Origin: a virus
DNA: 49,305 bases
Reading direction: 5' to 3' (one strand)
Virus record (IMG/VR): IMGVR_UViG_3300027969_000148
Location: 1 to 49,305 of that record
The translations under genes and the position numbers were made by a program. Below the pieces are notes generated by a model. That model was not told where the DNA came from. It saw only the letters and a list, made by a program, of their open reading frames with translations, and ran no database searches. Of the stretch, positions 22,943 through 25,609 are shown in pieces; position 1 is the stretch's first letter, and each line of letters opens with the position of its first letter.

Positions 22943-22974
22943 TTTGACAGATTAAAATAAATATCTTATCTTTG
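22943..22974 (+). promoter_or_regulatory. Promoter of the permuted tRNA-like cluster
   Basis: TTTG (22943-22946, within TTTGACA) and TATCTTTG (22967-22974) with a 20-base spacer. The first structured RNA starts about 30 bases downstream and no gene follows, so the product is non-coding. Confidence 0.8.
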
Positions 22975-23011
22975 TAGAAGAATTAAAGTTCTTAAAATTA
23001 TTGAAGAGATA

Positions 23012-23086
23012 GGTGGACGTTGTGTCGAGGATTCAAATCCCTCCGGTCTTAACCCCGTAGCTCAGATGGTAGAGCATACGTCCACT
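23012..23086 (+). ncRNA. Circularly permuted tRNA-like element 1
   Basis: The T-arm part (GAGGA-TTCAAAT-CCCTC, 23027-23043) comes first and the D-arm part (TAGCTC-AGATGGTA-GAGC, 23058-23075) second, reversing tRNA order. The two outer ends pair as an extended anticodon stem: GTGGACGT (23013-23020) with ACGTCCAC (23078-23085). Positions 28-31 and 39-42 fall inside this helix. The acceptor region is a short hairpin with no free ends. No conventional anticodon loop can be read. A functional tRNA would require cutting and rejoining. It could instead be a tRNA mimic. Confidence 0.6.
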
Positions 23087-23096
23087 AACTTATAAT

Positions 23097-23187
23097 GGTA
23101 TTGTAGCTCAGTGGGGGATTTATCTCTCTTGGTAGAGCAGGAGTAACGAAATACTCTGTGCCGCAGGTTCGAACCCCGCCGATACCA
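23097..23187 (+). tRNA. tRNA-like element with 17-base D-loop insertion
   Basis: Normal order and a good acceptor: GGTATTG with CGATACC. D-stem GCTC/GAGC, T-arm GCAGG-TTCGAAC-CCCGC (one mismatch), discriminator A. The D-loop is 25 bases long: GGGGGATTTATCTCTCT interrupts an otherwise standard AGTTGGTA. The anticodon stem (GGAGT/ACTCT) encloses eight bases, AACGAAAT, with no T at position 33, so no anticodon can be assigned with confidence. It lies between two permuted elements. Confidence 0.55.
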
Positions 23188-23188
23188 C

Positions 23189-23283
23189 AAAATGTGTAGT
23201 GTAGAGTCGTTGGTTCGATTCCAACAACCGTAATCGTAATGACCAAGGTTTAGCTGCAGTGGTAGAGCTTACACACACATTTT
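23189..23283 (+). ncRNA. Circularly permuted tRNA-like element 2
   Basis: A perfect T-arm (GTTGG-TTCGATT-CCAAC, 23209-23225) precedes the D-arm half (TAGCTGCAGTGGTAGAGC, 23251-23268). The anticodon stem is made by the outer ends: GTGTA (23199-23203) with TACAC (23270-23274). It continues outward as nine more pairs (AAAATGTGT 23189-23197 with ACACATTTT 23275-23283) past one bulged A at 23198. Such exact tRNA spacing in permuted order is hard to reach by chance. AACC/GGTT forms the inner part of an acceptor-like helix. Confidence 0.65.
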
Positions 23284-23309: not shown

Positions 23310-23340
23310 CTTGACAAATGAAAAAAATCACTTATCTTTG
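23310..23340 (+). promoter_or_regulatory. Strong promoter of the ornate RNA
   Basis: CTTGACA (23310-23316) and TATCTTTG (23333-23340) with the CTTG-to-TATC spacing at 19 bases. It combines the Bacteroidota -33/-7 signals with a TTGACA, and is one of the best-matched promoters in the window. Confidence 0.85.
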
Positions 23341-23345
23341 TAAAA

Positions 23346-24262
23346 CAAATTAGGGAAACCTAATACGTTCTTAGAAATTTTAGATTATCCATTACACACT
23401 TCGGTGTTGTAAAAAACGATAATAGGTGGCTTATCATCTTTAAATAAACTGCGAAAGCAGGATAAACCGAAATTAGTTGTGTTACTGATTTTGGGGTTTG
23501 GGAAACCGAACTCGAGTAAGCAAGTGAGATATCAGTGAGCCTGTAGTACCGAGGATAACTTCGTAGGGAAATGGATTACTGACCGGGAGATGTGGGTCTT
23601 TCGGTTGAGGGGGGAACCCCAAACTAAGAATAACTCATAGGGATTATGTAAAAAATAAAGTCATCCAACTTTATGATTGCGAGTTCCAAAATTAGAGGGG
23701 TCTTAACGCCGAAAGGCAAGATAAGGTGACAGGTGGTGCTGGCTTTATCCTTATCAAACATCTACCAAGATGTTGATTTGAAGAATTCTTGAAATTTGGA
23801 GATAGGGATATCTCATCGAGAAGTTTAGTATTTTGTCTCTCAAAAGGAGACGAAGCTTATGGTAGACTACTTCTTGAACACATCCACAACACAATTACTA
23901 TTTTCAATATGGTGAAAAACTAAAAGAAACATAGCAAAAATGTCTACCCGATGTCATTGACAAGTTGCCTACTTAGTAACGAGATGTTCGTTGCACAGGA
24001 TGACCGCAAGTCTGAATGTATTCTTACCAAAAACCTCTACGGAGTCGAATCCGGAGTCAGGTCGCAAGCTTGAAGAGAGTTGAATAATGAGAGAGTAGAT
24101 GATATCGTAAGGAGTGATTGGTCTAACCAATCGGCAATGAGGATTACACCCCAAAAGGATGTGGAAAAGAAGTCAAACAATAAAACTTCCAAAGATTCTC
24201 AATAAGACGAGTATTCTCATCGTATTAAGCCAAAAGGTGGTACATTAATTTGTATCACCTTT
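23346..24262 (+). ncRNA. Large ornate structured RNA, ~0.9 kb
   Basis: About 900 bases without a credible gene, bounded by a strong promoter and an intrinsic terminator. Hairpins with stable tetraloops recur: TTAGG-GAAA-CCTAA (23350-23363), C-TTCG-G (23399-23404), CTGC-GAAA-GCAG (23449-23460), GGGG-GGAA-CCCC (23609-23620), GCC-GAAA-GGC (23708-23717) and GAGATA-GGGA-TATCTC (23799-23814). Further helices are GATAAGG/CCTTATC (23720-23755), AACATC/GATGTT (23757-23774), GTCTC/GAGAC (23835-23851) and GATTGG/CCAATC (24116-24132). Size, GNRA density and location beside phage tRNA-like genes resemble the giant ornate RNA classes GOLLD and ROOL. Membership cannot be decided by eye; it may be a new family. 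Confidence 0.8.
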
Positions 24263-24298: not shown

Positions 24299-24736
24299 AT
24301 GAAAAAATCAGTTAGTATAATCAATAAGAAAGCGAAGTTTGAATACGAGTTCCTTCAGACAGAAACTTGTGGAATTCAACTAGTAGGTTCGGAAGTGAAA
24401 TCAATCCGGGGTGGTAAAGCATCCATCTCTGAGGGTTATTGTTATTTCAACAACGGAGAGTTATTTGTTAAGGGAATGAATATATCCGATTATGGATATG
24501 GTTCTTCTCACGATACAACCCGGGACCGAAAACTTTTACTTAAACGAAAAGAGTTAAACAACTTGGAGAACCAACTCACCAACGGATTAACCATCATCCC
24601 GTACCGATTGTTCCTGAACGATAAAGGATTGATTAAAATGGAGATTGCTTTGGCTCGTGGTAAGAAACTCTACGATAAACGAAATAGTATAAAATCTAGA
24701 GATATTGACCGGGATATGAAAAGGGACTTGAAATAG
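24299..24736 (+). CDS. smpB: SmpB, tmRNA-binding protein, 145 aa
   Basis: Full-length SmpB: NKKAKFEYEF (9-18), GIQLVGSEVKSIRGGKASISEGYC (two conserved blocks, about 25-48), NNGELFVKGMNIS, RDRKLLLKRKELNNLE, and the C-terminal ALARGKKLYDKRNSIKSRD tail that enters the decoding centre. SmpB binds the tRNA-like part of tmRNA and delivers it to stalled ribosomes. A tmRNA is encoded 480 bases away on the other strand, so the phage has both parts. The stop codon lies inside the terminator hairpin. SmpB genes are unusual in phages. Confidence 0.95.
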   Translation: MKKSVSIINKKAKFEYEFLQTETCGIQLVGSEVKSIRGGKASISEGYCYFNNGELFVKGMNISDYGYGSSHDTTRDRKLLLKRKELNNLENQLTNGLTIIPYRLFLNDKGLIKMEIALARGKKLYDKRNSIKSRDIDRDMKRDLK

Positions 24737-25213: not shown

Positions 25214-25609
25214 TGGTGGAGGTAGAGGCTTCGAAGCCTCGTGTTGTTCACCCTAAGTGTTCAGGACTACACGTTTAGGACATTGTTTGAGCTAACAATC
25301 CGAAATTTCACAATTCCCTTATTTTTAGAGTGGTTCGGTTTACTGAGAACTAATCCTCCACTTGTACCTTTTCGGATAGGTACCACACCTTTGTAAGGAC
25401 TCCTGTTACTGGGTATATGTCCACCGACCCTAATGTGTGTTTGCTTACGCTACGTTCACAAGCTCATCTTGACGTACAAGACCTACTAGAGCCATTTTGT
25501 TTAAAATGTTGCCATTTATAATTTTGTCATCCATAGATTTAAGTGATAGGAAACTTCTCACTACGTGCCCCAAATAAGTAGATATGCCAGTCAATACCAT
25601 TTTACCCCC
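25214..25609 (-). ncRNA. ssrA: tmRNA, about 396 nt
   Basis: Read leftwards from 25609: GGGGGTA (25609-25603) pairs with TACCTCC (25224-25218), giving a seven-pair acceptor with a G3-U70 wobble, the alanine identity element of tmRNAs. Discriminator A and an encoded CCA (25216-25214) follow. The conserved 5' region TGGTATTGACTGG (25599-25587) resembles the universal TGGATTCGACGGG. The T-arm is GAGGC-TTCGAA-GCCTC, with a six-base loop. An AGTGA/TCACT helix lies where the first pseudoknot is expected. An open frame ends in LVNVA-TAA (stop at 25447-25445), the likely tag end; the resume codon is not certain. Confidence 0.85.

Follow-up and report, generated by a model that had tools for sequence, protein, structure and literature searches.

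The window analyzed here is the whole of IMG/VR virus record IMGVR_UViG_3300027969_000148, 49,305 bases in length, and appears to be part of a huge phage with a Bacteroidetes host. This reading of the sequence is preferred because the window is enriched for a Bacteroidetes-type promoter motif class (14 found versus 1.8 expected) and because its closest named DNA relatives are uncultured phages of 634-642 kb, which match it in the GOLLD region only. Its RNA and smpB island contains the following features:

22944-22974, + strand: Bacteroidetes-type promoter (TTGACA-N-TATCTTTG), lying 38 nt before the E1 stem
23013-23085, + strand: E1, a permuted tRNA-like element (fold, alignment of relatives, weak YrlA match)
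23097-23188, + strand: E2, tRNA-like in normal order, with a D-loop hairpin insert and an abnormal anticodon arm (ARAGORN, RF00005, alignment of relatives)
23189-23283, + strand: E3, a second permuted tRNA-like element (fold z = -3.0, weak match by the E1 model)
23311-23340, + strand: another Bacteroidetes-type promoter, where the GOLLD unit begins (motif scan)
23816-24223, + strand: GOLLD RNA, conserved 3' domain (RF02032, 285 bits)
24299-24736, + strand: smpB gene (Pfam PF01668, E = 1.8e-49)
25214-25609, - strand: tmRNA gene (RF00023, 45.6 bits, E = 4.5e-16, slightly below the cut-off of 47)

E1 has an 8-bp closing stem (GTGGACGT at 23013-23020 with ACGTCCAC at 23078-23085) that encloses a T-arm (GAGGATTCAAATCCCTC, 23027-23043), a hairpin at the acceptor position (CGGTCTTAACCCCG, 23044-23057) and a D-arm (TAGCTCAGATGGTAGAGC, 23058-23075). 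A sequence-only reading had described this permuted order at 23012-23086, and direct inspection and the predicted fold agree on it: the minimum-energy RNA fold of 22985-23100 consists of exactly these helices. The fold energy is unexceptional (z = -1.3) and is uninformative by itself. In most copies the acceptor hairpin has 3-4 bp and a loop of 4-8 nt. The GGT-CTTA-ACC hairpin first proposed for it is possible as an alternative register, but the relatives favor CGG/CCG as the conserved pairs. There is no anticodon loop, the acceptor is closed, and a paired 8-bp stem occupies the anticodon position. E1 also carries, in sequence only, a target-like U55 and a D-loop U; being a substrate of the tRNA-modifying enzymes TruB and DusA is a trait of bacterial Y RNAs. 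The window copy can form a weak outer stem (ATTAT/ATAAT), which is AT-rich and not convincingly conserved.

A search with the neighboring SmpB protein fetched 53 viral loci, and a script that sought a T-arm, a D-arm and a closing stem upstream of smpB identified about 25 loci with E1 and about eight with E3. A pattern scan raised the E1 tally to about 40 IMG/VR contigs, beside GOLLD and smpB. We collected 16 distinct E1 sequences and aligned 14 distinct ones for covariation. The closing stem is paired in all 14. Three of its eight pairs are doubly changed, giving 15 doubly changed cells that are not all independent events, as two of the pairs change together; none of 500 shuffles reached that number, and the count falls to none when the partner strand is slid by one to three columns. 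E1 is therefore not a chance arrangement. The first three acceptor pairs likewise hold in 14 of 14, each sequence in its own register, and they include G-C to U-A double changes in L116, a distant copy on contig L012 whose acceptor helix is CTTG/CAAG instead of the CGGA/TCCG found elsewhere. At the tertiary T-loop/D-loop elbow pair 19/56, 13 sequences have G-C and L116 has U-A; this swap, in one contig only, points to a real tRNA-like elbow. The double compensatory changes in the closing stem and the acceptor pairs are the pairing-preserving substitutions that the earlier reading had asked for, and together with the existence of relatives they bear out its claim of a conserved RNA class rather than an accident.

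For comparison, some 40 other places where a T-arm meets a D-arm, most of them in tandem tRNAs, were considered, and only two have a similar closing stem: a Y RNA that adjoins a phage Ro60 gene, and a junction that lacks a true D-arm. When the pattern was scanned for additional E1 variants, only L117 came back, which is the same contig as L012. E1 was not found in a collection of genome contigs, and E1-E3 gave no convincing match in a phage collection (best E = 0.3), in which the hits listed fall on E2 and those with an annotation are tRNA genes.

Relatives provided 20 distinct sequences upstream of E1, and 19 of these retain the promoter, at a distance of 40-48 nt from the TGTGTC linker that precedes the T-arm; its spacer in the window is one base longer than the scanned pattern. 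Because this conserved promoter lies just upstream, E1 is taken as the first element of its transcript. With one promoter before E1 and the next after E3, a single transcript carrying E1, E2 and E3 is plausible. GOLLD is present after E1 in all 13 E1 loci tested, with smpB following GOLLD, and an opposite-strand tmRNA scores above the cut-off in 9 of 13 relatives tested. A GTTCTT leader comes after the E1 promoter and again after the GOLLD promoter (window positions 22988-22993 and 23367-23377) and also precedes stable RNAs in relatives; we take it to resemble a boxA antitermination element. The island of predicted RNAs is modular. Three relatives (L016, L018 and L024) have an extra structured-looking insert of about 130-190 nt between E1 and E2, in which no Rfam family matched at the gathering threshold, and four others (L009, L032, L072 and L079) have a different module in the place of E3.

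E3 is the other of the two permuted elements that had been claimed for this region. Its closing stem (23189-23203 with 23270-23283) is imperfect and has 13-14 bp, its T-arm and D-arm lie at 23209-23225 and 23251-23268, and its acceptor pairs are AACC (23226-23229) and GGTT (23247-23250). A covariance model built from E1 gives a weak hit on E3, whose fold has a z score of -3.0 and whose relatives are too alike for a covariation test. The intervening E2 is called tRNA-??? by ARAGORN and scores 36.6 bits with RF00005. Because its anticodon loop has 6 nt or is otherwise abnormal in place of the normal 7 nt, and because the anticodons called by ARAGORN differ among relatives, E2 is probably not a decoding tRNA. 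Its D-loop contains a hairpin insert (GGGGGA-TTTA-TCTCTC) that appears to covary in relatives. In two phages of 634-642 kb, tRNA-like genes immediately upstream of GOLLD (L057, 3770-3895; L058, 3660-3760) also have long D-loop insertions.

The part order of E1 is that of the tRNA-like module of the bacterial Y RNA YrlA (RF02553), and it is thus not a new design. In YrlA, a stem formed by the 5' and 3' ends holds Ro60, and the other domain resembles three tRNA arms (D, T and acceptor; PMC8394870); YrlA has been reported as carried by phages (PMC7765460). E1 shares with this domain the succession of stem, T-arm, closed acceptor-position hairpin, D-arm and stem, in which the arms lie within the end-joining stem, as well as tRNA-like T- and D-loops and a similar length. 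A relaxed-threshold Rfam search matches 23000-23099 to YrlA with 30.8 bits. Tested E1 contigs match the model end to end with 30-41.5 bits, with a weaker score of 21.5 bits for the L012 variant, and all fall below the RF02553 gathering score of 69 bits. This cut-off is too strict for phages, because the Y RNAs beside phage Ro60 genes fail it too (32-53 bits). Such cross-hits are weak evidence when taken alone, because tandem-tRNA junctions, including those of control genomes, also match the YrlA model, and one tandem junction scores 30.8 bits with R1, a covariance model built from E1 only.

Loci that encode Ro60 provide a more direct comparison. We fetched 43 loci using phage Ro60 (TROVE) proteins as queries, and Pfam confirmed the Ro60 assignment for four of these phage proteins. 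At distant TROVE loci, the permuted module of E1 recurs in RNAs that adjoin the Ro60 gene. R1 finds Y RNAs adjoining TROVE genes in six of them (L152, L153, L154, L158, L162 and L165), with scores of up to 38.5 bits versus 30.8 for the best tandem-tRNA junction, a modest margin that leaves much weight on their position beside Ro60. The Ro60-adjacent RNAs (for example, those of L143, L153, L154 and L165) resemble E1 in being phage-borne and in having the permuted module in several copies, sometimes in tandem, and the TGTGTC linker before the T-arm is common to E1 and the Y RNAs of L154. The claim of a novel RNA class accordingly stands in part: the permuted order is already that of the YrlA module, but the Ro60 side is missing and the genomic setting differs.

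The clear permuted Y RNAs that lie next to phage Ro60 genes all have the motif UACUUC (TACTTC in DNA) on the 5' side of the T-arm, and their acceptor hairpins are 7-9 bp long; in a group of huge phages whose Y RNAs lie just upstream of Ro60 the motif comes after GTAGTGA. We derived UACUUC from these Ro60-adjacent copies, and it would mark the Ro60-binding base of phage Y RNAs. E1 differs in each respect. Its acceptor hairpin has 3-4 bp, TACTTC occurs in none of the 16 distinct sequences, and GTAGTRA...TACTTC was not found in eight E1 contigs. A profile search of the E1 contigs tested, which may be incomplete, found no TROVE gene, and a query with phage Ro60 protein found none in the four largest (308-322 kb). 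Two of these four, G001 and G010, have long collinear blocks in common, as well as scattered homologues elsewhere, although their gene order differs; each probably covers much of one genome. E1 also stands before GOLLD, in company with the tRNA-like E2. E1 scores under the family gathering threshold and is found with neither UACUUC nor a TROVE gene. Under the membership rule that we applied it is not classed as a Y RNA; its form is that of the Y RNA effector module.

We consider it fairly probable that E1, and probably E3 as well, is a stand-alone tRNA-elbow mimic of the YrlA type, freed from Ro60 or never attached to it, that binds an elbow-recognizing protein; the kinship is one of form, and convergence from a tandem tRNA pair, in place of descent from YrlA, could have produced it. 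The main competitor, which we judge unlikely, is that both E1 and E3 are diverged but otherwise ordinary Y RNAs. They would bind Ro60 from the host, or from a divergent gene of the phage, and tether it to a nuclease as in D. radiodurans. The common order of the effector module and the end-to-end YrlA matches are consistent with such RNAs, Ro60 genes do occur in relatives from the wider group (LR745206 and G027) and in many huge-phage contigs, and the window copy can form the weak outer stem. Against it, the tested E1 contigs have neither the GTAGTGA...UACUUC signature nor a TROVE gene, UACUUC itself being absent from 16 of 16 sequences, and the AT-rich outer stem is not maintained convincingly.

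The tRNA-like T- and D-arm sequences, and the fact that tandem tRNAs produce the same juxtaposition of arms, could also be explained if E1 were a tandem-tRNA junction in decay, retained by chance. This is highly improbable, as decay would break both the closing stem and the acceptor hairpin, which are instead maintained by double compensatory changes, and we reject decay on this covariation. An origin from tandem tRNAs followed by selection is possible. More improbable still is a circularly permuted tRNA gene, in which the acceptor loop would be cut and the ends joined at the anticodon to give a working tRNA. Such genes are known from algae and archaea and have the same order of parts (PMC3978253, PMC3218864), but they mature to decoding tRNAs, whereas E1 has only 3-4 acceptor pairs in place of a 7-bp acceptor stem, and its would-be anticodon loop is an 8-bp stem without the U33-anticodon arrangement. 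No bulge-helix-bulge site was noticed in E1, and this candidate is rejected on the acceptor length and the paired anticodon position. Least probable of all is a permuted, two-piece tmRNA with E1 as its tRNA-like domain. E1 resembles that domain in order and smpB adjoins it, but its D-arm is a full tRNA D-arm and its acceptor is too short for charging. The permuted tmRNA model RF04321 gives no match to E1 up to E = 10, and a regular tmRNA is present in the window and in relatives; on these two grounds a permuted tmRNA tied to smpB is rejected.

If E1 is a stand-alone elbow mimic, it would come first in the transcript of a stable-RNA operon that also includes E2 and E3 and lies ahead of GOLLD. 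An RNase P cut at the 5' end of E2 and a further cut at its 3' end would release E1 and E3. Because they have no anticodon loop and a closed acceptor, E1 and E3 cannot be charged or decode, and the elbow, which is read by TruB, DusA and other tRNA-binding proteins, would remain as their functional part. During infection, E1 would probably engage an elbow-recognizing protein of the host or phage, which could be a tRNA-modifying enzyme, an exonuclease or a nuclease. A decoy or tether role would be the most natural reading. Y RNAs are understood as tethers that join Ro60 to a nuclease, and a tRNA-mimic half that is conserved in the absence of the Ro60 half would mean that the mimic does a job by itself, and would offer a small, testable handle on that job.

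A broader proposal, which is possible but doubtful, is that the permuted tRNA mimics of huge phages form a class independent of Ro60, in which stand-alone modules beside GOLLD cages, an E2-type mimic, smpB and tmRNA act as decoys for host nucleases or modifying enzymes that attack or read tRNAs, or are carried as cargo of the GOLLD cage. GOLLD makes RNA cages and occasionally has phage tRNAs within its linker (PMC12286853). That arrangement is also a stable-RNA island with tRNA-like elements beside GOLLD, but here the elements are tRNA mimics, not tRNAs, and they have their own promoter. A link between the mimics and the cage is conceivable. Here a GOLLD locus lies within an island of tRNA mimics, with a ribosome-rescue system (smpB and tmRNA) beside it, and this setting offers a lead on the role of GOLLD.

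Upstream of Ro60 in seven of the fetched loci (L119, L123, L125, L129, L133, L137 and L139) there are two consecutive RNAs with UACUUCG motifs. The second of these runs into a structured-looking RNA of about 300 nt that has a terminator-like hairpin at its end.
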